Positions 1 to 17,027 of a stretch of 17,027 nucleotides of DNA are shown piece by piece (position 1 is the stretch's first letter; each line of letters starts with the position of its first letter). This stretch comes from Thermoplasmata archaeon (GTDB taxonomy: Archaea; Thermoplasmatota; E2; DHVEG-1; B8-G13). The notes beneath the pieces are model-generated. The model was not told the DNA's origin. It saw only the letters and a list, made by a program, of their open reading frames with translations, and made no database searches. The stretch spans positions 1 to 17,027 of the forward strand of contig JAGGYP010000099.1 in NCBI GenBank assembly GCA_021162485.1. The letters are read 5' to 3'. The position numbers and the translations under genes are program-made.

Positions 1-1141
1 GATAAGACGATCCAGAGGGTTTGTCCCTCTTCCAATAAAAATTAGTTTGAAAAACAACAAAAAAATACTCGGATTTGGCGGAGAGATTAACACAAGTATA
101 TGTATATTGTCGAGAGATAGAGCCTATCTCTCTCAGTATATTGGTGATACAACAAAATATGAGACTCTTAGATTTCTGTTAAACACAGTAGAGCATATTA
201 AAAAATTGACAAATATAGAAAAATTTGATGTTTTAGCATGTGATCTCCACCCTGATTTTGACACTACACATGCTGCAGAGGAAAAAAGCAGGGTAGAAGA
301 AGTGCCGTTGTATAAAGTTCAACATCATTTTGCACATGCTTTAGCTTTAATGCAAGAAAATGATTTAGAGGAGATGATTGCCATAACATGTGATGGGCTA
401 GGATATGGAGATGATGGAACTCTATGGGGTGGAGAGATCCTCTACTGTACAACAAGAGATGAAATATGTTACAAGAGAGTGGCACATCTTATGGAACAAC
501 CAATGGTTGGTGGAGATTTAGCGACAAAGTATCCCTTGAGAATGGTTGCTGGTATTTTATTTGATGAACCAAGTTTGCATGATTTTCTTCTCCAGAAAAG
601 CAAGTTCTTCCCACATGGAAAAGATGAAATTGAATTGATTTTTTCTCAACTGATGAAGAAGAAATACGCGATCACAAGTAGCTGCGGTCGAGTACTGGAT
701 GCAATATCAGCATTACTTGGCATATGCTACGAAAGAACCTATGAGGGAGAACCTGCTATGAAATTAGAAGCATTTGCTGCTAGTGGAAAAGATGTTTTAA
801 AACTGAAGTCACAAGTAAAAGATAACACGATTGATACAAGATACTTGTTATCTGAAATATTCTATCATTTAGAGAAAGAAAAAATCAAAAACCTAGCAGC
901 ATCAGCACAGGCATATATAGCCAAAGGCATAGCAGAGATGGCAATAGAAAAGGCAATGGAAGAAAATGTTAAACATATAGGGTTTACAGGTGGATGTGCC
1001 TATAATGAGTATATAGCAAAAACAATAGAAGAAAAGGTAGAGAAAGCAGGTTTTAGATTCTATTTACATAAAAATGTACCCGCTGGTGACGGTGGGATTT
1101 CTTTTGGTCAAACGATTGCTGCTGCCTTAATGGAAAACTAA
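1..1141 (+). CDS. hypF: [NiFe]-hydrogenase maturation carbamoyltransferase HypF, C-terminal half (5' end outside window)
   Basis: HypF makes the CN ligands of [NiFe]-hydrogenases, passing a carbamoyl group from carbamoyl phosphate to HypE. The frame is open from base 2 and first encodes IRRSRGFVPLPI, the end of the YrdC-like domain that precedes the Kae1-like domain in HypF. The TTG at 47 is therefore an internal Leu codon and not the start; the real start lies before the window. Visible Kae1-like/HypF motifs are a GFGGE opening, LSQYIGD, ACDLHPDF, the metal-binding histidines of QHHFAH, CDGLGYGDDGTLWGGE, TSSCGRVLDAISALLG, GFTGGCAYN and GDGGISFGQ. About 379 residues are present, roughly half of a usual HypF. 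The stop (TAA 1139–1141) overlaps the stop of the convergent gene. No other hydrogenase gene is visible. Family assignment is firm. Confidence 0.93.
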   Translation, partial: IRRSRGFVPLPIKISLKNNKKILGFGGEINTSICILSRDRAYLSQYIGDTTKYETLRFLLNTVEHIKKLTNIEKFDVLACDLHPDFDTTHAAEEKSRVEEVPLYKVQHHFAHALALMQENDLEEMIAITCDGLGYGDDGTLWGGEILYCTTRDEICYKRVAHLMEQPMVGGDLATKYPLRMVAGILFDEPSLHDFLLQKSKFFPHGKDEIELIFSQLMKKKYAITSSCGRVLDAISALLGICYERTYEGEPAMKLEAFAASGKDVLKLKSQVKDNTIDTRYLLSEIFYHLEKEKIKNLAASAQAYIAKGIAEMAIEKAMEENVKHIGFTGGCAYNEYIAKTIEEKVEKAGFRFYLHKNVPAGDGGISFGQTIAAALMEN

Positions 1142-4100
1142 TCTTTTATTACAGGTGTAGCAGAGAGTTTGCTATGTTTGATAGAGACCATATGTGGAGA
1201 TGATAAAATATTCTCTTCAGTGTTTACATTTTTACTGTCTACATCATCTATCTCTTCCACCAGTTTTAGAAGTTCGTTGTTGCTATAGAGGCTGCTTCCT
1301 CTCAGCTTGATCATAAAAATATTTGTTGTTGCATTGTTTTGATTCCCATATTTATCATATGCAATAACTGTTATTTCACATCTGCCAAATTTCCTCTCAT
1401 CCAACGTATACGTATAAGGCGCTTCGGTATCAGTGAATTTTAGCTCGTTATTCACCCAGAACTCAACTTTTGATATCCCATCAGGATCTGATGCAACAGC
1501 ATTTATCGTTATTTTACCAATAACTATGGTTTTCTCAAAAGGTAACGCTCTTTTTTCTTCATCATTAATATAAAGATAACCTTTTTTGGGCCTGGTTATA
1601 TCTACTGTTGGTATAGTATTTGCTTCTATTTTACACCATGCCTCTGGTTTTCCGATTGTCTCGTTGGTTTCATTGTTATCTGCTGCATCTCTTGCTTTTG
1701 CATAAAACTGGTAGTATCCACTTTTCATTGTATTTACATCGAAGTACCAAGACCATCCATCATTGCCATTACTATCTCTTCCAAACCATTTCCAGTCACT
1801 CCAGCTACTATTATCAGTGCTCCATCTATAGAAGAGATCAACTTCTGATATTGGACTCAATTTATCCTGCGTCTCAACATTAGCGGATATTTCAAAAGGC
1901 TCATTATGGAAATAAGGCTCTATGGTGTTTACAGTAGCAATGGGTGGTATATTATCAAAGCCAAATTCCACTTCACTCTTGTTTTTATTTTCCGAGTTCC
2001 CAGCTAGATCAGTAGCTATACAATATATCTGATAATATCCTACTCCCTCAGTAGTATTAAATGACCACCTCCATGGAGGAGAATCTATTGTTTGATATTT
2101 CTCCCATTCACTCCAATTTTTCTTGTTAAGGGAGTATCTATAGTATAGAGTCATATTTTTCACTCCGCTGAGGTCATCTGTTGCTGTTGCCCAGATGTTC
2201 ATATGGTCGGACTTATACCAATAATGTGATAGTTTATCCAGACTTGAATTGGGTGCATTTTCATCACCAACCTGGAAGGTATGAAGCTCTGACTGATTTG
2301 TGACACCATATATATCGCTCGCTATTATGTAGAAAACATAGATTCCTTTTGAATAATTATCATTATAGTAATAAGTTGTATTGACTAAGTGAGACAAGTT
2401 TTTAACAGAATGGTTTCCATCTGGTAATGTAATATTTATTTTCACAAAATCTACTCCAAAATCATCGGAAACCTCACAGGATATGTTTACAGGTCCAAGT
2501 TTTAACCTGAAAGAAGGTGTTATTGTAATATTGTTTATCACTGGTGGTGCGTTGTATAAAATAGTGAAGTTGTAAATACTGCTTTCGTTTTTGTTTCCAC
2601 TAGCATCTTCTGCGAGTATGGTGAAATTATATAATCCAGCAGCAGTATAGGTGGTGTTTAAATAGTATCGCCCATCTGAACTACTGTTCATTGATAGAAG
2701 CAGTGTTGTATCATCTGGAAATGTTACGTTTAATGATACGTTTGCAACAGCAACATCATCTGTTACAATGCAACTTATGTTGATATTTCCACCTGCAACC
2801 TGGCTTGGAGGGTTTATGGTAACGTCAGATATGTTCGGTGGAGAAACATCGGAACGATTCACTATGTAGAACGATTTGTTCTCAGAAACATTTGTGTTTC
2901 CACTTGTATCATTAGCCCAAATACTATAATTATATCTACCAGTTATATCGTAAGTTGCATTGTAGTAGTATTTATTATCTCCGCTTGTTTTATTCATTGG
3001 CATATTAACAGATGTACCAGTTGGTCCATAAATTCTAACTTTTACCAGGTTAACAGCAATATCATCAACTATACATGATATGTTCACAGATTTGTTGACA
3101 ACTTGTACAGTAGGTTCAGCTTCAACATTCTTTATCGGAGGAGCTTGAAGATCAATTATAGTTATGCGGAAAGAGTAATCAAGATATCCCTCTTTTGAAA
3201 CTGTTATATTATACTGTGTAACTTTGTCTACCTCTGGTGCTGTGAAGCTAACAGTTCCATTAGCATCTGTAGTGTTTTCACCTTCATCGCCAAATTTAAC
3301 AGTTGCATTCTCTACGGGGTCATTACTTGTTTTATCCTTTACATGGACAGTGAAATTACTCCCTTCACCTATGGTAGTAGATGGATCAACTGTTACATTG
3401 AAAACACTTTTAATAATGAAACTAAATGAACCTGTCTGCGCTGTATTGTTAAACTTGTCAACAGCTTTGATGTAGAAATGATAGGTTCCACTAAGGGAAT
3501 AAGTTTTATTGTAATAATAGTGGTGAGAATCAGGTATCATTTCTATTTCGGATAAATTGGTTTCGTATGTTGAATTGCCTGGGCGGGTTATATTTAATAA
3601 AATATTTTTCAAACCATTTTCAACATCATCTTCTGCATCAAAAGAGATGTTTACATAGCCATCTATTTTTTGTATGGCTGGGGTTATTGTTACATTGGAA
3701 ATAGTTGGTGGCGTATCATCGAAATATTCGCCAACGTAAACATCATCTATATACCATATTTCACCATGAGTACTTTGATATCTCCAAGCAATGCAAACTG
3801 TATCATTTTTATATTCACTTAAATTATAAGCAACCCTCTCCCAGTTAGAGGGAAGTGTACCTGGTTTAAAAGTGAGGTTTCTAATCTCATCGAAATAATT
3901 TTTATCTTTTGTTTTATTAGTAGAGATCAAAACATAATTTGGCAAATTATCATTTTCAACCCAAGTGGCTCTATGCCAAAACATAAGATGAGGATTCTCG
4001 TATTTGGATAGATTAATGGCAGGTGTTATTAGCCATTCATCCTGTGTTATGTAAATATTATCATAATGGCACATAATGCTATGTGAACCAGAATGCGAAT

Positions 4101-4284
4101 CTATATCTGTAATCTCCCAGGTTTTAGTTGCACCGCTTCCAAGAACAGTCCAGCCAGATGGTATTGTGCCACCTTCAAAACCCTCAAAAAAATTGTCATC
4201 ATCACTAGCAAGAATAGCAAATGATGTAAGCAGCAAAGACACTGCTAGTAGCAGGCTAAAGCCTATTTTAAAGATTCTTTTCAC
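1138..4284 (-). CDS. Large secreted multi-domain Ig-like surface protein
   Basis: A 1048-residue exported protein of unknown specific role, probably a surface or adhesion protein. Residues 1–26 form a signal peptide (MKRIFK, then a Leu-rich core, cleavage near ILA|SD). Residues about 33–188 resemble the choice-of-anchor/cleaved-adhesin (MAM-like) jelly-roll domain (FFEGFEGGTIPSGW, DEWLITPAINLS, WYIDDVYVGE). Ig-like modules follow: about 192–290, 294–375 (a big-domain/carboxypeptidase-regulatory type with DANGTVSFTAP), 382–475, 481–575 and 580–672. Two modules carry W-rich YRYS/YRWS...NWSEW/SWSDW motifs (677–775 and 780–888), and the last has an SDPDGISKVEFWVN motif (890–993). There are more than 40 N-X-S/T sequons, as in heavily N-glycosylated archaeal surface proteins. 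No C-terminal transmembrane helix or PGF-CTERM-like tail is visible; the end is hydrophilic. The start is GTG at 4284 with GGGGGA upstream. Domain names are from pattern recognition. Confidence 0.85.
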   Translation of the reverse strand: MKRIFKIGFSLLLAVSLLLTSFAILASDDDNFFEGFEGGTIPSGWTVLGSGATKTWEITDIDSHSGSHSIMCHYDNIYITQDEWLITPAINLSKYENPHLMFWHRATWVENDNLPNYVLISTNKTKDKNYFDEIRNLTFKPGTLPSNWERVAYNLSEYKNDTVCIAWRYQSTHGEIWYIDDVYVGEYFDDTPPTISNVTITPAIQKIDGYVNISFDAEDDVENGLKNILLNITRPGNSTYETNLSEIEMIPDSHHYYYNKTYSLSGTYHFYIKAVDKFNNTAQTGSFSFIIKSVFNVTVDPSTTIGEGSNFTVHVKDKTSNDPVENATVKFGDEGENTTDANGTVSFTAPEVDKVTQYNITVSKEGYLDYSFRITIIDLQAPPIKNVEAEPTVQVVNKSVNISCIVDDIAVNLVKVRIYGPTGTSVNMPMNKTSGDNKYYYNATYDITGRYNYSIWANDTSGNTNVSENKSFYIVNRSDVSPPNISDVTINPPSQVAGGNINISCIVTDDVAVANVSLNVTFPDDTTLLLSMNSSSDGRYYLNTTYTAAGLYNFTILAEDASGNKNESSIYNFTILYNAPPVINNITITPSFRLKLGPVNISCEVSDDFGVDFVKINITLPDGNHSVKNLSHLVNTTYYYNDNYSKGIYVFYIIASDIYGVTNQSELHTFQVGDENAPNSSLDKLSHYWYKSDHMNIWATATDDLSGVKNMTLYYRYSLNKKNWSEWEKYQTIDSPPWRWSFNTTEGVGYYQIYCIATDLAGNSENKNKSEVEFGFDNIPPIATVNTIEPYFHNEPFEISANVETQDKLSPISEVDLFYRWSTDNSSWSDWKWFGRDSNGNDGWSWYFDVNTMKSGYYQFYAKARDAADNNETNETIGKPEAWCKIEANTIPTVDITRPKKGYLYINDEEKRALPFEKTIVIGKITINAVASDPDGISKVEFWVNNELKFTDTEAPYTYTLDERKFGRCEITVIAYDKYGNQNNATTNIFMIKLRGSSLYSNNELLKLVEEIDDVDSKNVNTEENILSSPHMVSIKHSKLSATPVIKD

Positions 4285-4330
4285 AGTATTTCCCCCATTC
4301 TGAATACTTTTAACTATTTTTATGACCTAT

Positions 4331-7356: not shown

Positions 7357-8901
7357 TCACTCTTTTCCAAAGAATCCTCTTAATACAGGATGCATCTCCA
7401 TAGCCTGCTCTCTAGCAATTTGTTCATAGAGATTAATCAATATACCAACTGTTAATAACACACCCGTTCCACTGGTGTTGCCAACAGTTCCTATGGCATC
7501 TGCCGATGCTGCCAACGCTCCTACTGCAGCACCACCTATTACTGTTACCACTGGAATATATCTTTCCAGTACTTTTCTTAGTATTCTGGGGTCTCTTCTA
7601 AAACCAGGTATCTGCATACCAGAGCTCTGAATCTGCCTAGCAACTGCTGCAGCACCCATATCTGTTGTCTCAATCCAGAACTTCGCAAATAATATAGATC
7701 CTATGATCATAATGGAGAAGTATACTATTACTCTTATAGCGTATTGCCACGCAGCATGCCCACCTGGCATGCCACCTTGTACCATTGGTAAAAGCCAACC
7801 TTGTATACCATTTAGTCTGTGTAAATACCATGCTCCGCCAGCTACAGGAACTGTGGGATTAGTTGAAGTTAGATCATATTTTCCAATCCACCACTGCCCA
7901 CCAATTAGAGGAATTCTTTGTAGACTCGGGTTTGTATAGAATAGTAGGGCAAACATGTTTATGTTCGCAAGTAATGCAGACATAAGAATAACAGGTATGT
8001 TAGAGGCATAAATCAACCTAATCGGATACCTACCTCTTGCTCCTCTCACACGTTCATGGGCAAGAGGTAACTCAATTCTTGTAGATTCCGCATATACTAC
8101 AATCAGGAAAATAGAGATTGTACCTAACAATGCTACTATAGAGTTCTGCGTGCCTAAAAAGATTGTCTGAAAGCCACCGCCATTCACAATTTCCGATATA
8201 GACATTTGTGATAAGAGATAATAGGTTCCTGGTATAAGCCCAGCTGGTGGATTACTAGTACCTAATGGCAAGTCCTTGTGAATTGGAAGCCAATTGAATA
8301 TCCCAGTAAATATAGCCTGTGAAACCCCAGCTGCTATAAACAAAGAAATACCAGATCCTATACCCCATTTAGAAATAAGTTCATCCATCAGAAAGACTAA
8401 TAACGCTCCCATAAACAGCTGTGAAACAATTATAGCTCTTGCCCCACCTAGCCCAACCATTTTTATTAAACCTGCATCAGGTTGTAAATATCCAAAAACC
8501 TGAGGAATCGCCTCAACAAGTATCATTACTATAACCAGGATCTTCTGAAAACCTTGATATATAGCCTTGTCTTCTTTTTTTGTTAAATCTAGGTTTATGA
8601 TTTTGGCGCCAACAAATAATTGTAAAATAATGGATGCTGTAACAATTGGTCCTATACCCAGGTGCATTATTGAACCACTAGCGCCTGCCATTATAGCACG
8701 GAAACCAGCAAACATATCAAGGGCTGTACCACTTACACCATAAATCATTATGTTTGTTAGGATGTAATAAAGTATAAGGCATAGGATAGTCCAGAATAAC
8801 TTTGATCTAAATGGGACATGCCCCTCAGGTCTAGCAACAGCAGGCCATCTCTCAATAATAGGCTTTAATGCATAGAGTTTACTCCTCTTCTCTTCAGCCA
8901 T
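7357..8901 (-). CDS. secY: SecY, protein-conducting channel subunit
   Basis: The central pore of the Sec translocase (with SecE and Sec61-beta encoded elsewhere). At 514 residues it is of the archaeal SecY/Sec61-alpha type with ten expected membrane spans. Typical elements are the N-terminal LKPIIERWPAVARPEG amphipathic stretch and the GTALDMFAGFRAIMAGASGSIMHLGIGPIV plug and helix 2 region. LISKWGIGSGISLFIAAGV is also seen. The ribosome-binding loop is HERVRGARGRYPIRLIYASNIPVIL. A long extracytoplasmic loop of about 60 residues, rich in Gly, Pro and Trp, lies between about residues 325 and 385. The C-terminal MQIPGFRRDPRILRKVLERYIP loop is present. ATG at 8901 starts 40 nt after the uL15 stop. 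Confidence 0.97.
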   Translation of the reverse strand: MAEEKRSKLYALKPIIERWPAVARPEGHVPFRSKLFWTILCLILYYILTNIMIYGVSGTALDMFAGFRAIMAGASGSIMHLGIGPIVTASIILQLFVGAKIINLDLTKKEDKAIYQGFQKILVIVMILVEAIPQVFGYLQPDAGLIKMVGLGGARAIIVSQLFMGALLVFLMDELISKWGIGSGISLFIAAGVSQAIFTGIFNWLPIHKDLPLGTSNPPAGLIPGTYYLLSQMSISEIVNGGGFQTIFLGTQNSIVALLGTISIFLIVVYAESTRIELPLAHERVRGARGRYPIRLIYASNIPVILMSALLANINMFALLFYTNPSLQRIPLIGGQWWIGKYDLTSTNPTVPVAGGAWYLHRLNGIQGWLLPMVQGGMPGGHAAWQYAIRVIVYFSIMIIGSILFAKFWIETTDMGAAAVARQIQSSGMQIPGFRRDPRILRKVLERYIPVVTVIGGAAVGALAASADAIGTVGNTSGTGVLLTVGILINLYEQIAREQAMEMHPVLRGFFGKE

Positions 8902-10883: not shown

Positions 10884-10957
10884 GGGCTCGTAGATCAGTC
10901 TGGTAGATCGCCTCCTTGGCATGGAGGAGGCCTCGGGTTCAAATCCCGACGAGTCCA
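10884..10957 (+). tRNA. tRNA-Ala(GGC)
   Basis: A 74-nt cloverleaf. The acceptor GGGCUCG pairs with CGAGUCC and includes a G3:U70 wobble pair, the alanine identity element, with discriminator A. The D arm is GAUC/GAUC. The anticodon arm CCUCC-UUGGCAU-GGAGG gives anticodon GGC. The T arm UCGGG-UUCAAAU-CCCGA is perfect. CCA is not encoded. No intron is present. Confidence 0.96.
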
Positions 10958-10970
10958 CTTATACCTCAAA

Positions 10971-10977: not shown

Positions 10978-11047
10978 CATAAGGGGGAAATCAATGTCCA
11001 AATAAATTTTGCTGGTAAAACTATTTCAACCATTCTTTTAACAAAAA

Positions 11048-11059
11048 CATTTATTTAAC
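11048..11059 (+). promoter_or_regulatory. Putative TATA box for the PEPCK N-terminal fragment
   Basis: CATTTATTTAAC lies about 55 nt before the GTG at 11109 and predicts a transcript start near 11079. With the GGGTGA ribosome binding site before the GTG, the start signals of the old pck gene look intact although its body is lost. Confidence 0.4.
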
Positions 11060-11108
11060 AAAACTAGATACAAAAATCTCTCAAAATACTTATGAAAGGG
11101 TGAAATAA

Positions 11109-11471
11109 GTGAGCGAAAATTACATGAAAGTCTTAAAAGAAAGAATAGATGAGGAAAATTATAATAAATTAATAAGAATAAAAAACTCGTATTTACACAA
11201 GTTCATAGCTAGGTACATAGAGCTTTGCAATCCAACTAAAATTTTTGTTTCAGATGGATCTAAAGAGGCAATAGAATATATTAGGAAAGCAGCAATCAAA
11301 AATGGAGAGGAAACACCTCTTGCTATTGAAGGACATACTGTACATTTTGATAATTACTACGACCAGGCGAGGGATAGAGATGGGTTCTCGTTTTCCCTAA
11401 ATTTAGCGAAATCTTTTCCAGATAACACAACGGAGCCAAAAAACAAAAGTTTTAAACCCAAAACAACATAA
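11109..11471 (+). pseudogene. pckG: N-terminal fragment of archaeal PEP carboxykinase (GTP-type) with an unrelated tail
   Basis: Intact PEPCK converts oxaloacetate + GTP to phosphoenolpyruvate. Residues 1–about 90 read as the N-terminus of the archaeal GTP-PEPCK family (as in Thermococcales): MKVLKERIDEENYNK, then LHKFIARYIELCNPTKIFV, DGSKEAIEYIRKAA and AIEGHTVHFDNYYDQARDR. Similarity stops at about base 11381. The last 29 residues (GFSFSLNLAKSF... to KPKTT) look like random Lys/Thr/Asn-rich read-through, and neither other frame restores PEPCK sequence. The family normally has about 600 residues, so the GTP P-loop, metal ligands and active-site cysteine are missing and no activity is possible. 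GTG 11109 has GGGTGA upstream, so a 120-residue stub could still be made. The C-terminal remnant is at 16598. The family call rests on recalled motifs. Confidence 0.82.
11449..11458 (+). promoter_or_regulatory. Putative TATA box of the oadA operon
   Basis: GTTTTAAACC lies about 35 nt before the oadA ATG at 11488, predicting a very short leader. AAGGTG at 11476–11481 is the likely ribosome binding site. The box is inside the tail of the PEPCK fragment, just inside the left edge of the inserted block. Confidence 0.4.
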
Positions 11472-11487
11472 TGTTAAGGTGTAAAAA

Positions 11488-13218
11488 ATGGTACAACTAC
11501 ATGAGCAGATATTCAGGGATGCGCATCAGTCAATACTTGCAACGAGAATGAGGACAGAGGATATGCTTCCAATATGTCCGACTATAGATAGAATAGGTTT
11601 TTTTTCTCTTGAGGTATGGGGTGGCGCAACATTTGATGTTTGTATACGATATCTTAATGAAGACCCTTGGGAGCGTCTGAAAAAGATGAAAGAGGCTTTA
11701 CCAAACACGCCTCTGCAAATGCTTGAGAGGGCAATGAACATTGTTGCATACAGGAATTTCCCTGATGACATAGTAAAAAAATTTATTTATTATGCGAAAA
11801 AAAATGGGTGCGACTATTTCAGGATTTTTGATGCATTGAACGATTTACGTAATATGAAAGTTCCTATTGAGACAGTTAAAGAGGTTGGCGGTCATGCCCA
11901 GGGAGCATTATGTTATACTATAAGCCCGATTCATACTGTTGAAAGATATGTTGAAGATTTCAAACAGCTGGAAAAAATGGGCTGCGATTCGCTATGTATT
12001 AAGGACATGGCGGGTATGATTTCACCAAAAAAGGCTTATGAGATAATAAAGGGATGCAAGGATGCTGGAATAAAAATACCGATTGATTTGCATTCACATT
12101 GCACATCAGGGATGACAGGCATGGCGTACATGAAGGCATGTGAGGCAGGCGTTGACATACTTGATACTGCTATCTCACCTATTTCTGGCGGTACTGGTCA
12201 ACCCCCAACAGAATCTGTTGTAGCAGCATTAAAAGATACAGAGTACGACACAAAATATGACATGAATCTGCTCATGGAATGCAGGAAATATTTTTTGAAG
12301 GTTTGGGATAAATACAGGCATCTGCACCGTCAAACAGCATTAAAGGTTGACCCATCTGTAACTGTTCATCAAATCCCAGGTGGGATGCTTTCAAATCTGG
12401 TTTTTCAGCTTGAGCAGCAGGGTGCAGCAGATAAATATGTTGCTGTGCTTAATGAAATTCCAAGGGTTAGAAAAGATCTCGGCTATCCTCCTCTTGTTAC
12501 TCCAACATCACAGATAGTGGGTGTTCAGGCAGTAATGAATGTTCTTTTTGGAAGATACAAAAAAATACCAAAGGAGACAAAGGATTATGTTAGAGGAATG
12601 TATGGCAAGCCACCAGGTGAAATATCAAAAGAAATATACAAGACAATACTTGGGCCCAACTGGAAAGATGAAATAATAGATTGCAGACCATCTGATTTAC
12701 TTGAACCCATGTATAAAAAAAGAAAGGATGAACTTGAGGAAATGGGGTTACTAAAAAAACCTGAAGATGTTCTTACATACGCCATTTACCCACAGATTGG
12801 GTTGAAATTTTTGAAGGGGGAGGTAAAAGCGGAATTTACATCGGATCAATTACCTCTGATCCCAAAGCAGCAACAAATTGATCTATCTGATAAAATATTC
12901 AACGTTGAGGTAGATGGTAAATTATACAAAGTAAAAGTAAAGGTTGGAAAGGGAAAAGATGGAATAAAACATCATGTCGCGAAGACAGAAACAAAAGAGG
13001 GTGGTGGAGAACCGATCTATGCGCCTATGCTGGGTACAATTATCAGGATTAATGTTAAGGTTGGTGACTCCGTAAGGAAAGGAGATACTGTTGCCGTATT
13101 GGAAGCAATGAAAATGGAGAACGATATTGTTGCACCCAGGTCAGGAATCGTCACCTCAATAAATGTTTCACCAGGTCAAGAGGTCAATGCAGATGATGTA
13201 TTAATGGTGATTAAATGA
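11488..13218 (+). CDS. oadA: Oxaloacetate decarboxylase alpha subunit (carboxyltransferase + biotin carrier)
   Basis: Transfers CO2 from oxaloacetate to its own biotin, releasing pyruvate. The 576 residues hold an N-terminal carboxyltransferase TIM barrel (about 1–300) and the conserved carboxylase domain (about 300–450). A linker follows, then a C-terminal biotinyl domain (about 505–576). Visible catalytic features are RDAHQSILATR with metal ligand Asp11, CIKDMAG with the reactive Lys172, metal ligands His202/His204 in DLHSHCTSGM, and LDTAISPISGGTGQPP. The biotin attachment site is VLEAMKMEN, Lys542. A pyruvate carboxylase subunit B has the same domains, but oadG and oadB directly downstream favour the Na+-pumping decarboxylase. 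ATG 11488 has AAGGTG upstream. The stop overlaps the oadG start (ATGA), so the two are translationally coupled. Confidence 0.93.
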   Translation: MVQLHEQIFRDAHQSILATRMRTEDMLPICPTIDRIGFFSLEVWGGATFDVCIRYLNEDPWERLKKMKEALPNTPLQMLERAMNIVAYRNFPDDIVKKFIYYAKKNGCDYFRIFDALNDLRNMKVPIETVKEVGGHAQGALCYTISPIHTVERYVEDFKQLEKMGCDSLCIKDMAGMISPKKAYEIIKGCKDAGIKIPIDLHSHCTSGMTGMAYMKACEAGVDILDTAISPISGGTGQPPTESVVAALKDTEYDTKYDMNLLMECRKYFLKVWDKYRHLHRQTALKVDPSVTVHQIPGGMLSNLVFQLEQQGAADKYVAVLNEIPRVRKDLGYPPLVTPTSQIVGVQAVMNVLFGRYKKIPKETKDYVRGMYGKPPGEISKEIYKTILGPNWKDEIIDCRPSDLLEPMYKKRKDELEEMGLLKKPEDVLTYAIYPQIGLKFLKGEVKAEFTSDQLPLIPKQQQIDLSDKIFNVEVDGKLYKVKVKVGKGKDGIKHHVAKTETKEGGGEPIYAPMLGTIIRINVKVGDSVRKGDTVAVLEAMKMENDIVAPRSGIVTSINVSPGQEVNADDVLMVIK

Positions 13219-13478
13219 CTGGTTTGTATTTTGCATTAAAAGTAGCAGTAATTGGTATATTAATTGTTTTTGGGGTGTTATCTTTATTAGCGTTTGTGAT
13301 TTATCTGGTCGGAAAAATTTTTATAAAAAAACAAGAAAAAGAAAAAAAAATAAAATCCATGGAAAGAAATATCCGGGAAAAGATAATAAAATCTGCAATA
13401 TGTACTTATCTAAAGGAAAGCGGTTATAATGTATCTAATGAAGAAATAAATATTGAGGTGGTGGGTGAAAATGTATGA
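13215..13478 (+). CDS. oadG: Oxaloacetate decarboxylase gamma subunit
   Basis: The small subunit that holds the alpha subunit to the membrane beta subunit. Its 87 residues have one strong N-terminal membrane helix (about 8–34, ALKVAVIGILIVFGVLSLLA), then a Lys/Glu-rich cytosolic segment (KKQEKEKKIKSMERNIREK) and an acidic end. This fits the OadG layout, although the family is poorly conserved and the call leans on position between oadA and oadB. The ATG overlaps the oadA stop by 4 nt, and its own end overlaps the oadB start by 8 nt. I see no His/Cys-rich C-terminal zinc motif like that of enterobacterial OadG. Confidence 0.8.
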   Translation: MTGLYFALKVAVIGILIVFGVLSLLAFVIYLVGKIFIKKQEKEKKIKSMERNIREKIIKSAICTYLKESGYNVSNEEINIEVVGENV

Positions 13479-14592
13479 AACAGGCTTGCAACATCTGACC
13501 TGGCAGAATATTGTAATGTTAGCGGTAGGCATTGGTTTCCTTTTTCTTTCAATCAAAAAGAAAATTGAACCATATGAACTACTGCCGCTAGGTGTTGGAA
13601 TAATTCTGGCGAATCTACCACTCACCGGTTTAATGACAGTAGTTAGTGGACAGCAAGGATTGCTATATACCATTTATAAGTACGGAATTTTGTGGACTAT
13701 ATTCCCAACACTCATATTTGTTGGTCTTGGTGCCATGACAGATTTCGGTCCATTAATAGCAAATCCAAAAACATTAATTTTGGGTTCTGCTGCGCAAATT
13801 GGTATATATTGCGCTTTTCTCTTGGGTATCCTATGTGGGTTTACACCTGCAGAATCTTGCTGTATAGGTATTATTGGAGGGGCAGATGGTCCTACGACAA
13901 TATATCTCACAACATTTTTACGTCCAAAAATACCCGATTTTATACCTTTTTTAGCAGTTGTATCTGTGGCAGCGTATACCTATATGGCAATGGTTCCTAT
14001 TTTCCAACCCCCAATAGCAAAAGCTCTTACAACTAAAGAGGAAAGAAAAATAAAAATGAAGGCTCTAAGACCTGTTTCAAAAACAGAAAAAATATTATTC
14101 CCGATTATAATGAGTTTTGTTATTATCCTACTAGTACCAAGGGCAGGAACTTTAATAGGATGTTTCTGCTTTGGAAATATTCTAAGAGAAAGCGGGGTGG
14201 TACCACGACTTTCAAAAACTGCTCAAAATGAGCTCATAAACCTTATAACATTGTTCTTATGCTTATGTATAGGTGCATCAATGAATGGAAATGTTATCCT
14301 GCAGTGGAAAATGATGATGATTCTTGGTTTAGGATTGATTGCAATATGCGGAGGGACAGCAGGAGGGGTTTTGATTGCGAAACTGATGAATTATTTCTCA
14401 AAAGAGAAGATTAATCCTTTGATTGGAGCAGCGGGTGTATCAGCTGTTCCGATGGCTGCTAGGACGGTACAAAAAATAGCTCTAAAAGAGGATCCAACCA
14501 ATCATATATTGATGCATGCAATGGGTCCAAACATTGCAGGTGTGATTGGTTCTGCCACCGCTGCAGGGATTTTCTTAGGAATGTTGGGGTGA
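13471..14592 (+). CDS. oadB: Oxaloacetate decarboxylase beta subunit, Na+ pump
   Basis: A membrane subunit that decarboxylates carboxybiotin and drives Na+ out of the cell. It has 373 residues from ATG 13471. A TTG at 13453 extends the frame by six residues, but GGTGGTGGGTGA sits between the two codons at a proper distance from the ATG, so 13471 is chosen. Family hallmarks are GLGAMTDFGPLIANPK and the strictly conserved CCIGIIGGADGPTTIYLTT, which holds the functional Asp of the pump. Other seen elements are FPIIMSFVIILLVPRAGTLIG, the GNILRESGVV re-entrant region and GAAGVSAVPMAARTVQK, with NHILMHAMGPNIAGVIGSA at the end. About nine hydrophobic segments are visible. The same family includes methylmalonyl-CoA and glutaconyl-CoA decarboxylase beta subunits, so the substrate is fixed by OadA. 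Confidence 0.93.
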   Translation: MYETGLQHLTWQNIVMLAVGIGFLFLSIKKKIEPYELLPLGVGIILANLPLTGLMTVVSGQQGLLYTIYKYGILWTIFPTLIFVGLGAMTDFGPLIANPKTLILGSAAQIGIYCAFLLGILCGFTPAESCCIGIIGGADGPTTIYLTTFLRPKIPDFIPFLAVVSVAAYTYMAMVPIFQPPIAKALTTKEERKIKMKALRPVSKTEKILFPIIMSFVIILLVPRAGTLIGCFCFGNILRESGVVPRLSKTAQNELINLITLFLCLCIGASMNGNVILQWKMMMILGLGLIAICGGTAGGVLIAKLMNYFSKEKINPLIGAAGVSAVPMAARTVQKIALKEDPTNHILMHAMGPNIAGVIGSATAAGIFLGMLG

Positions 14593-14598
14593 GAAATA

Positions 14599-14928
14599 AT
14601 GGATGAAATATTTATAAAAAAAGGAGAAGAAAAATATAAAGCAGAAGAACCAGGTAAACTGTTCAGATTGCTGATAAAATCTAGGCGTATGGAGGCAGTA
14701 ATCGCAGAGATGGGGATCGGTGTGGAATCAAAGATGTATAAGCATGAAGGAGAAGAAATGCATCTCCTGCTTAAAGGGAAGATAGAGTACAGGGTTGGAG
14801 AGAAAACATATACACTGGAGGAAGGAGATATACTCTGGCATAGGTCAAATATTCCACATGGAGCAAAAAACATTGGTGATGAAAAAGCGGTTTATCTAAC
14901 AGTTGGTTCACCACCCACATTCATGTAA
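14599..14928 (+). CDS. Small single-domain cupin protein
   Basis: A 109-residue cupin_2-type beta-barrel. The first cupin motif is KHEGEEMHLLLKGKIEYRVG (H-x4-E...G) and the second is GDILWHRSNIPHGAKN (G-x...P-H), giving metal ligands from His, Glu and His. No helix-turn-helix is fused to it. The ATG has GGGGTGAGA upstream, 6 nt after the oadB stop, and its TAA is immediately followed by the birA ATG, so it is part of the oad operon. The substrate is unknown. A role with oxaloacetate or another small acid is only a guess from context; it could also be a sensor without enzymatic activity. Confidence 0.85.
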   Translation: MDEIFIKKGEEKYKAEEPGKLFRLLIKSRRMEAVIAEMGIGVESKMYKHEGEEMHLLLKGKIEYRVGEKTYTLEEGDILWHRSNIPHGAKNIGDEKAVYLTVGSPPTFM

Positions 14929-15567
14929 ATGAAAATATATCGTTTCAAGCAAGTGCCATCAACCAATGATGTAGCAAAAGAAATTGCACTGCAAGGTGAA
15001 AGAGATTTTGTTGTTGTTTCTGATGAACAAACTAAAGGAAAGGGGAGAATGGGCAGGGAATGGAAATCACCTCCCGGTGGGCTTTATTTTTCTATTGTTA
15101 CCGAAAAAAACCCTCACCTTCCATTAATTGTAGGCGTTTCCGTTGCATCAGCATTAAAAGATTTTGGTTTATCACCTGTATTAAAATGGCCCAATGATGT
15201 TATGATTGGTAACAAAAAAATCTCAGGCATACTCATTGAGTGTCTTGATGATTTCGCTGTTGTCGGCGTCGGCGTAAACATATCTAAGACACCAATGGAA
15301 ACAGCAACATCAATAAAGGATGAAACAGGAAAAAATGTTTCTAAGGATGCAGTTTTAAAGAGTATTTTAAAAAATTTTGAGAAGAATAAGAAAAAAACTG
15401 TTTTGGATGAATACAAAAAACTCTGCTCCACGATAGGCAGGAAAGTAAAAATAAAAACATTAAACAAGGTTATTAAGGGAAAAGCTGTAGATGTTGATGA
15501 ACATGGTAAACTTGTTCTTGAATCTGGTGAAAGAATTGTTTCAGGTGATGTTATCCATCTGAGGTAA
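14929..15567 (+). CDS. birA: Biotin–protein ligase, catalytic-only (no DNA-binding domain)
   Basis: Attaches biotin to the carrier lysine through biotinyl-5'-AMP. Its 212 residues begin directly with the catalytic domain: QVPSTNDVAKE, the biotin/ATP loop GKGRMGREW (about 37–45), SPPGGLYFSI, LKWPNDVMIGNKKISGILIE and VGVGVNIS. The C-terminal SH3-like part is GRKVKIKTLNKVIKGKAVDVDEHGKLVLESG. The N-terminal winged helix of repressor-type BirA is missing, so this protein should not act as a biotin repressor. The ATG abuts the cupin stop (TAAATG) without its own clear ribosome binding site, indicating coupling. The likely partner is OadA Lys542 in the same operon. The last 27 nt overlap the convergent DUF1284 gene. 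Confidence 0.95.
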   Translation: MKIYRFKQVPSTNDVAKEIALQGERDFVVVSDEQTKGKGRMGREWKSPPGGLYFSIVTEKNPHLPLIVGVSVASALKDFGLSPVLKWPNDVMIGNKKISGILIECLDDFAVVGVGVNISKTPMETATSIKDETGKNVSKDAVLKSILKNFEKNKKKTVLDEYKKLCSTIGRKVKIKTLNKVIKGKAVDVDEHGKLVLESGERIVSGDVIHLR

Positions 15568-15915
15568 ACATATCTTTTTCCATTCACATTTTTTACATGC
15601 TTTTTCTCTCCATTCCTTGAATATTTTCGGAAAATATTTTTTCACAAAATCTTTTCTTACCCTATCACCTGTTTTTAACCCTAAAAGTGTGAGTGCAAGT
15701 TCATCAATCTCATCAACTTTATATCCAGGATGATTGCATCTTCCATTTTTTAGAAAAGGACAAAGACTGCATATATCATCTGCATTTTTCACTATCTCAG
15801 CAGAATTGCTCTCCCAGAATTCAACCCACTTTTTTGCATTATTCACAAAATCCTTGCTGTATCCTTTTCCTTTAAAAAACTGAAGGCATATAAGATGATG
15901 TCCTCTTAATTTCAT
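15541..15915 (-). CDS. DUF1284 cysteine-rich protein
   Basis: Its 124 residues match the DUF1284 family signature: N-terminal KLRGHHLICLQFFKGKGYSKDFV, then two cysteine clusters, ICSLCPFLKNGRCNHPGY and CKKCEWKKICLP. The six clustered cysteines suggest an iron-sulfur or zinc site. No biochemical role is established that I know of. It starts with ATG 15915 preceded by GGAGGA, 10 nt after the bioY stop, so it is the second gene of the bioY transcript. Its 3' end overlaps birA by 27 nt on the opposite strand. A link to biotin uptake is suggested only by this operon. Confidence 0.88.
   Translation of the reverse strand: MKLRGHHLICLQFFKGKGYSKDFVNNAKKWVEFWESNSAEIVKNADDICSLCPFLKNGRCNHPGYKVDEIDELALTLLGLKTGDRVRKDFVKKYFPKIFKEWREKACKKCEWKKICLPQMDNIT
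15574..15606 (+). terminator. Possible T-rich terminator region for the oad–birA operon
   Basis: Three T-tracts of five to six bases follow the birA stop closely (about 15575–15579, 15589–15594 and 15601–15605), with no hairpin. They fit archaeal T-tract termination but lie inside the antisense DUF1284 gene, so base composition could also explain them. Confidence 0.3.
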
Positions 15916-15925
15916 AATTCCTCCA

Positions 15926-16540
15926 TTAAGCAGCTTTTGGTATTATCAATCGCCCAGCTGTTCCAGCAGCAACTGCCTTTAGGGCATCTCCTGCTATAAA
16001 AGGAACGAATCCCATCAGCATTGCTTCACCTATACTAACAGAATAAGAAAGGTTCAACCATACATAAAGCCATAATGTTCCGGGAATAAGAATCAGCATT
16101 ATATCGGCAAATAACATTAAACCAATCGTGTCCAAGAAACTTCTTGCCCTGAGGTTTGAGTCAACAACCCATCCTATGAATAACGCAGCAAGAATAAAAC
16201 CAATCATGTACCCTCCTGTTGGACCTAACAAAACACCAAGCCCGCAAGTCCAACCTGCGAACCATGGAACACCGGCAAATCCAAGTCCTGCATAAATAGT
16301 TTGGCTAAGACCACCATAACGTTTCCCGAGTATTACACCGGAAAGCAAAACCGCAAACGTTTGCCCAGTCACAGGAACAGGTGTAAACGGAAGATAAAAC
16401 CTGACCTGCGCCATTAAACCCGTGAAACAGGCAAATGCGCAACACATAACTAATTTGTAAACAAATTTTGTTTCAGTTCTCCATTTAAAAAAATCCTGCG
16501 TCCTGCTTTTGTATCCATCCACGAACACATTCATATTCAT
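15926..16540 (-). CDS. bioY: BioY biotin transporter (ECF S component)
   Basis: The membrane protein that binds and takes up biotin, either alone or with an energy-coupling-factor module; no BioM/BioN-type genes are near. It has 204 residues and about six hydrophobic helices. Family signatures are LPFTPVPVTGQTFAVLLSGVILG (helix 2 region), then YAGLGFAGVPWFAGW and LGPTGGYMIGFILAALFIGW. It continues to GFVPFIAGDALKAVAAG with the conserved late Asp-Lys and ends LIIPKAA. The start is ATG 16540 with AAGGTGA 5 nt upstream. It heads the leftward operon with DUF1284 and faces birA, so biotin import and attachment genes converge. Confidence 0.94.
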   Translation of the reverse strand: MNMNVFVDGYKSRTQDFFKWRTETKFVYKLVMCCAFACFTGLMAQVRFYLPFTPVPVTGQTFAVLLSGVILGKRYGGLSQTIYAGLGFAGVPWFAGWTCGLGVLLGPTGGYMIGFILAALFIGWVVDSNLRARSFLDTIGLMLFADIMLILIPGTLWLYVWLNLSYSVSIGEAMLMGFVPFIAGDALKAVAAGTAGRLIIPKAA

Positions 16541-16574
16541 TTTTTCACCTTTTATAAAGATATAATTGACGAGT

Positions 16575-16587
16575 GTATATATAAGGC
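16575..16587 (-). promoter_or_regulatory. TATA box for bioY
   Basis: The minus strand reads CCTTATATATAC, a strong archaeal box A, about 40 nt before the bioY ATG, predicting a transcript start near 16555. It lies at the right edge of the inserted block, directly against the PEPCK C-terminal fragment. I see no inverted repeat that would be a convincing biotin operator. Confidence 0.6.
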
Positions 16588-16597
16588 TATCTGCACA

Positions 16598-17027
16598 ATG
16601 ATGTTAGGAGTAAAAATCGATGCAATAGTCTACGGTGGAAGAGATTCAGATACGTGGGTATCGGTTCAAGAAGCATTCGACTGGGTACATGGGATTATAA
16701 CCAAAGGAGCATCATTGGAATCAGAAAGAACAGCTGCTGTGCTTGGAAAAGAAGGAGAAAGAGAGTTCAACCCCATGTCCAATCTTGACTTCCTCTCCAT
16801 ACCAGTGGGAAGATATATTGAAATAAACCTTGATTTCGGTAAAAAACTGAGGAAAAAACCAAAATCTTTGCGGTTAATTATTTTGTAAAAGACAAAGAAA
16901 CTGGCGAATATTTAACAGAAAAAAATGATAAGAAAATATGGTATAAATGGATAGACCTCAGGGTTAACAATGAGGCAGAGGCAATAGAGACACCAACAGG
17001 TTATATTCCATATATGAAGATTTAAAA
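16598..17027 (+). pseudogene. pckG: C-terminal fragment of archaeal PEP carboxykinase, frameshifted, runs to the window end
   Basis: From about 16604 the frame encodes typical archaeal GTP-PEPCK C-terminal sequence: VKIDAIVYGGRDSDTWV, FDWVHGIITKGASLESE, TAAVLGKEGEREFNPMSNL and DFLSIPVGRYIEINLDFG. At the A-run 16853–16864 the reading slips: this frame ends at 16888 (LRLIIL), while the frame starting with ATC at 16864 continues the family sequence (IFAVNYFVKDKETGEYL, then KKIWYKWIDLRV and EAIETPTGYIP). That frame stops at 17023, and a third frame there gives the expected YEDLK, so a second slip near 17010 is likely. There is no ribosome binding site or promoter for this fragment. It matches the N-terminal piece at 11109, with the catalytic middle absent. 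The frameshifts could partly be errors near a contig end. Confidence 0.82.

Follow-up and report, generated by a model that had tools for sequence, protein, structure and literature searches.

A predicted Na+-pumping oxaloacetate decarboxylase cassette probably replaced the core of a phosphoenolpyruvate carboxykinase gene in a Thermoplasmata archaeon

Among the closest known systems to the one reported here are the OadABG complexes of enterobacteria and Vibrio, and PckG, the GTP-dependent phosphoenolpyruvate (PEP) carboxykinase (PEPCK). In one account (PMC8100219), Na+-pumping oxaloacetate decarboxylase (OAD) couples Na+ export to a decarboxylation that is irreversible, and either PEPCK or OAD can serve growth on tricarboxylic acid cycle intermediates. 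We analyzed a 17,027-nucleotide stretch of DNA (the window) from a Thermoplasmata archaeon, which is the entire contig C38 of the metagenome-assembled genome (MAG) G000 (761 kb, 108 contigs, 59.6% complete), and in which an oad gene cassette lies between two remnants of pckG. The cassette resembles OadABG in its alpha and beta subunits and a candidate gamma subunit, its biotinyl domain, and the Na+-site residues of OadB, but it is archaeal, comes with cupin, birA, and bioY genes, sits inside pckG, and has an alpha subunit just under the NCBI equivalog cut-off; both pckG fragments are like GTP-dependent PckG, but the core is absent. The case amounts to the unusual substitution of a pump of known kind for a core enzyme, well bracketed on both sides, and not to a new kind of system. 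Genes gained and genes lost at metabolic branch points are mostly deduced separately; here the gained, energy-conserving enzyme occupies the lost gene, providing a testable case of a rewired PEP-pyruvate-oxaloacetate node in uncultured archaea. A search of one literature library found no paper pairing “oxaloacetate decarboxylase” with “Thermoplasmatota,” and among the matches listed no title or abstract start described such a pckG/OAD event.

We compared the window with 52 genomes of its order and 80 of its class, both counts including G000 itself, among which G001 is the one congener. The reference was an intact 630-aa PEPCK from G001 (locus L003 on contig C118), which scores above the cut-off of NCBIfam PRK04210. 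A first-pass annotation had PEPCK N-terminal sequence ending at about 11381 and C-terminal sequence resuming on the same strand at about 16604, and both the PF17297 and PF00821 matches and the alignment to L003 agree with it. The open reading frame (ORF) at 11109-11471 matches PF17297 (PEPCK_N) over residues 31-91 and past 11380, where the alignment to the G001 pckG turns gapped and poor, continues in unrelated sequence; the C-terminal (C) piece matches PF00821 at profile positions 164-249 and then, in another frame, at 243-300 up to the contig end. Order and strand are conserved across the 5.2 kb that separate the pieces, DNA identity to L003 is ~75% (74.5-75.5) for the N-terminal (N) piece and 84.4% for the C piece, and both align to the same orthologue rather than to different paralogues. 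Missing between them are L003 residues 92-410 (319 residues), including MCGKT at 275 and GDD at 291; with the catalytic core and P-loop of a GTP-type PEPCK gone, the window pckG cannot be functional as read. That the core was replaced, and the gene not simply interrupted, is also supported: the pieces belong to one gene, 319 codons are absent, and the congener carries pckG after the same tRNA-Ala. No second PEPCK was detected, as another PF00821 match, in the available ~60% of G000, and a 33-base match to L003 on contig C81 was taken as chance. Searching PDB sequences with the N piece (120 aa) gave no match.

The ancestral gene order radSAM-tRNA-Ala-pckG-TBP brackets the block on both sides. 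Contig C113 of G001 carries radSAM, tRNA-Ala, and the start of pckG, cut by the contig end, and C118 carries the whole pckG plus following sequence; the two overlap by ~350 bases with few differences (judged by eye), are unjoined in the assembly, and between them provide an intact pckG preceded by tRNA-Ala in a relative. On the right, a search with L003 located contig C11 of G000, which shares an exact 10-base overlap with the window end: its second base corresponds to L003 position 1686 (query orientation) and the window ends at position 1694. After the pckG tail, C11 has open frames for TBP, a TBP-like protein, an ORF, a PGDH-like protein (below the NCBI cut-off), and an enolase-like protein (by eye), and the order from pckG tail to PGDH-like matches G008, a member of another family of the order that reads tRNA-Ala-OPT transporter-pckG-TBP-like-TBP-like-ORF-PGDH-like (some of these names are by likeness). 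Identity to G001 is 81-82% for left-flank genes and 84% for the C piece, so that both sides fit one species pair. This ancestral order around the block argues against a chimeric assembly.

Between the pckG pieces the first-pass annotation had listed oadA, oadG, oadB, cupin, birA, DUF1284, and bioY genes, and each has a Pfam match above cut-off (Table 1; Pfam and NCBIfam/TIGR profile cut-offs were used for gene identities in the block). OadA contains the alpha-subunit domains PF02436 and PF00364 and was aligned to 2nx9 OadA, and OadB retains residues equivalent to Salmonella D203, S382, and N412, which according to PMC7274780 are involved in binding Na+. Oxaloacetate as substrate and Na+-coupled transport are predictions from these sequences; the presence of OadB by itself does not identify the substrate.

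Far from being random DNA, the block is a conserved cassette that also occurs in other families of the class. OadB (PF03977) occurs in 8 of the 80 class genomes and, within the order, in G000 only (1/52). The cassettes of families f8/f9 (L170, L171, L174) hold the same genes in the same order over the sequence available: L171 has the whole oadA-oadG-oadB-cupin-birA cassette with a convergent bioY; L174 begins inside oadB and has cupin, birA, and bioY, the last again convergent as in the window; and L170 runs from oadA through oadB and cupin to a birA start at the contig end. L172 has oadA-oadB-birA without cupin, L173 and L175 terminate inside oadB, and L169 is a distant OAD without any of the other cassette genes. 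The window differs from the f8/f9 cassettes in its DUF1284 gene, which was not found in the seven related OAD loci (E 0.01), in protein sequence (45-72% identical to L171), and in its setting, since the L170 and L171 copies follow aconitase-type and isocitrate-dehydrogenase-type genes. In a wider set of 80 named loci, retained from 99 that were found, birA lies in the available flank of seven, bioY of one, and cupin of none. The window presents a predicted biotin-dependent pump that travels with its own ligase and vitamin importer.

Table 1. Features of the pckG/OAD locus in window coordinates.
Feature	Position	Strand	Evidence
tRNA-Ala(GGC), ancestral left neighbor of pckG	10884..10958	+	ARAGORN; same tRNA precedes pckG in G001 C113
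Probable pckG promoter region, retained	11033..11070	+	38 bases 92% identical to pre-pckG stretch of G001:C113
pckG 5' piece	11109..11380	+	~residues 1-91; PF17297 E=1e-14; L003 alignment
Left junction and 107-base leader before oadA	11381..11487	+	G008 pckG alignment stops at 11380
oadA, oxaloacetate decarboxylase alpha (carboxyltransferase and biotinyl)	11488..13218	+	PF02436, PF00364, PF00682
oadG, candidate gamma subunit	13215..13478	+	PF04277 38.4 bits, cut-off 27
oadB, Na+-translocating beta subunit	13471..14592 (ATG 13471)	+	PF03977 E=7.6e-142; TIGR01109 above cut-off
cupin, conserved cassette member	14599..14928	+	PF07883; between oadB and birA in L170, L171, L174
birA, biotin protein ligase	14929..15567	+	TIGR00121 193 bits, cut-off 83.1
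DUF1284 protein	15541..15915	-	PF06935 E=2.3e-20
bioY, biotin uptake component, convergent with birA	15926..16540	-	PF02632 E=2.1e-38
Probable bioY leader and promoter, up to right junction	16541..16603	-	63 bases; TATA-like run by eye
pckG 3' piece	16604..17027	+	from residue 411; PF00821 E=8e-27; frame lost near 16862 and 17011

We consider it likely that a complete OAD Na+-pump cassette inserted into pckG, replaced codons 92-410, and left two dead ends. The oadA-oadG-oadB-cupin-birA genes, with bioY and the DUF1284 gene, would have been gained horizontally or moved from elsewhere in the genome; the origin looks like horizontal gain. OadA would then move the carboxyl group of oxaloacetate to biotin, yielding pyruvate, OadB would release CO2 and export Na+, and BirA and BioY would supply biotin. 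Neither the block nor the rest of the incomplete G000 yielded a biotin carboxylase, so that in the available sequence BirA and BioY would serve OadA alone. Pyruvate could be returned to PEP by the PEP synthase encoded on contig C62 (TIGR01418, 1232 bits against a cut-off of 739.75), and such a bypass would make PEPCK dispensable. The first-pass suggestion that one oxaloacetate consumer was removed and another added is accordingly a fair reading of the genes, with their functions predicted.

The cassette would have been joined by recombination, probably illegitimate. The scan for transposases and integrases took in nine window proteins and found none, and 50-base windows at the two edges have no common direct 5-mer or longer and two inverted 5-mers, in keeping with the earlier remark that neither such enzymes nor an obvious direct repeat mark the edges. 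None of the repeat families examined (20 of 33 direct, 25 of 29 inverted; those listed include A/T-rich and short families) frames the block, and in these scans it showed neither the transposase or integrase nor the terminal or target repeats of a transposon- or integron-type element. One repeat of 17 bases and 88% identity (D15) lies over the right junction at 16593-16609 and again in birA at 15189-15205, probably by chance. Tetranucleotide correlation is lower for the block (0.65-0.70 versus 0.83 for one flank pair), but composition is a weak sign of foreign origin.

Transcription of oadA could come from the surviving pckG promoter, a capture that we favor from the layout of the locus because the cassette lacks the aconitase-type or isocitrate-dehydrogenase-type genes that precede related copies and begins 107 bases after the remnant, while the pre-pckG stretch remains 92% identical to G001 over 38 bases; this stretch has a TATA-like appearance, judged by eye. 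The best match to the 107-base leader in related cassettes is 22 bases (E=0.026). In L170-L173 and L175 oadA comes after aconitase-type or isocitrate-dehydrogenase-type frames, at a distance of 89 bases in L172 and at most 23 bases in the other four, which leaves little room there for a promoter of its own. More tentatively, the event may have been a one-step swap, in which a promoterless cassette landing in the right orientation was expressed at once and a competing oxaloacetate user was removed; exchanges of this kind may recur in the class.

Several observations weigh against insertion of the cassette into pckG as described above. A single contig, in a 59.6%-complete MAG, shows the left junction, and a protein search matched the truncated N protein on this contig only (one of six matches). 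The GC content of the block (0.34-0.39 per kb) is close to that of the flanks, and composition therefore does not mark it as foreign. OadA and OadG both fall narrowly under their TIGR cut-offs (TIGR01108, 740.8 versus 756.5 bits; TIGR01195, 35.6 versus 36.05), as does the OadA of L171 under the NCBI cut-off. Identity to G001 is lower in the N piece (~75%) than in either the flank (81-82%) or the C piece (84%), and third-position changes are also higher in it (42/84 versus 27/85 and 23/48); the sole account offered is that it encodes the less conserved part of the PEPCK protein, where L003 and G008 differ by 27 first-plus-second-position changes in N and 13 in C1. The three frame losses described below are single-base changes beside short runs near contig ends, which are prone to assembly error. 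Finally, mutual exclusion of PEPCK and OAD across the class is not significant: intact PEPCK is found in 0 of 7 OadB-bearing genomes other than G000 and 18 of 72 without OadB (p=0.34; p=0.19 when G000 is counted), which is suggestive at most.

The alternative that fares best, though we still hold it to be rather unlikely, is that pckG was already dead, that its deletion and a later insertion or a rearrangement of a resident cassette were separate events, and that the block had no causal part in the loss of PEPCK. The four lesions of the 3' piece would suit such a history, as would the absence of a PEPCK match from 61 of the 79 other class genomes, many of them incomplete. The C piece is a damaged pseudogene: over ~660 bases altogether it has two frame losses in the window and, on C11, a third together with a premature stop, which is a substitution, unlike the run-associated frame losses. 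At protein level all seven left-flank genes compared stay in one frame relative to G001, six of them gap-free and secY with one gap; at DNA level the secY gap cluster at 7816-7876 sums to nine and is compensated, and other non-triplet gaps lie at gene ends. All three frame losses thus fall in the pckG tail, one tenth of the compared bases (p=0.001, in a test picked post hoc). Against an early death of the gene, the N frame is open over all 91 codons, and third-position changes relative to L003 exceed first-plus-second-position changes in all three pieces (42 versus 19, 27 versus 10, and 23 versus 2), indicating that selection held until late; we used codon-position counts because NG86 synonymous divergence (dS) was saturated in most pckG comparisons. 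A test for relaxed selection gave no signal: among sites invariant in 12 relatives, the window departs at one of the 21 in N and three of the 46 in C, and L003 at 0 and 3 of the same sites.

That the locus is instead a chimeric assembly, with a foreign contig end bearing an OAD cassette wrongly joined into pckG, we regard as improbable. The MAG is fragmented and incomplete, the assembly breaks inside pckG (C38/C11), OadB was not found in the other 51 genomes of the order, and divergence from G001 is greater in the N piece than in the flank, all of which speak for a misassembly. An identical OadA (P0127, 100% from residue 67) also occurs on a contig of 9,957 bases that may begin, at its left edge, inside oadA and may represent the locus assembled a second time. 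A chimera would require that pckG was falsely joined twice over, independently, in the same orientation and with order kept. The left flank and the C piece fit one species pair, the cassette ends coincide with gene-module ends and not with random positions, and the damage to the 3' remnant of pckG extends to the separate contig C11.

The carboxyltransferase part of OadA has a different affinity from the rest of the protein. Its first 440 residues are 90-98% identical per bin to P0128 and P0131, falling to 70-76% at 441-460, and its linker and biotinyl part are 35-41% identical to P0128, where P0128 and P0129 share 87-92%; one source labels P0131 as pyruvate carboxylase subunit B, and P0128 carries no name. 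Trees of the domains conflict with modest support (nodes near the window of 0.43, 0.46, and 0.86 for the carboxyltransferase and 0.79 for the biotinyl domain). A domain exchange between OadA and PycB took place near residue 457, in one direction or the other. Family f3 of the same order has pycB followed by pycA at L122 and L128 (with Biotin_carb_C matches inside), and of 14 pycB loci covered in this family, birA was found in nine and the same cupin in five. Its pycB-pycA-birA(-cupin) operon is like the window in placing a carboxyltransferase subunit beside birA and cupin, and differs in having a biotin carboxylase where the window has oadG-oadB; the product of a pycB-pycA operon carboxylates rather than decarboxylates. 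For the block to be a two-subunit pyruvate carboxylase module is very improbable despite the OadA carboxyltransferase similarity and the f3 gene order, since no biotin carboxylase gene turned up in it or in the incomplete genome, oadG and oadB occupy that gene's place, and its biotinyl domain groups with the OadA proteins linked to OAD rather than with those of f3 PycB.

Some variation was seen around these loci in relatives. The G001 MAG has two versions of the pckG 5' region (L146 and L003, on C113 and C118), and C113 ends ~45 bases beyond the position of the window's left junction, perhaps through strain variation at the site and perhaps by coincidence. In G008 an OPT oligopeptide transporter gene (L018:6239-8209) separates tRNA-Ala from pckG, showing that gene order at this spot varies within the order. 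At L173:2329-3173 (G067) a citF piece runs into the last third of the isocitrate-dehydrogenase-type gene before oadA, by deletion or by an assembly join; in L175 (G065) an open frame of at least 249 residues remains of the isocitrate-dehydrogenase-type gene. The genomes of genus g39 alternate: PEPCK without OadB in G066, OadB without PEPCK in G065, G067, and G068, and neither in G069; the G066 PEPCK (L185) lies next to an aconitase-type gene and citF, and L173, L174, and L175 carry the OAD genes of the genus. Elsewhere in the window, an open frame of 1062 codons at 1141-4326 carries Ig-like and carboxypeptidase-regulatory-like domains and probably encodes a surface protein.

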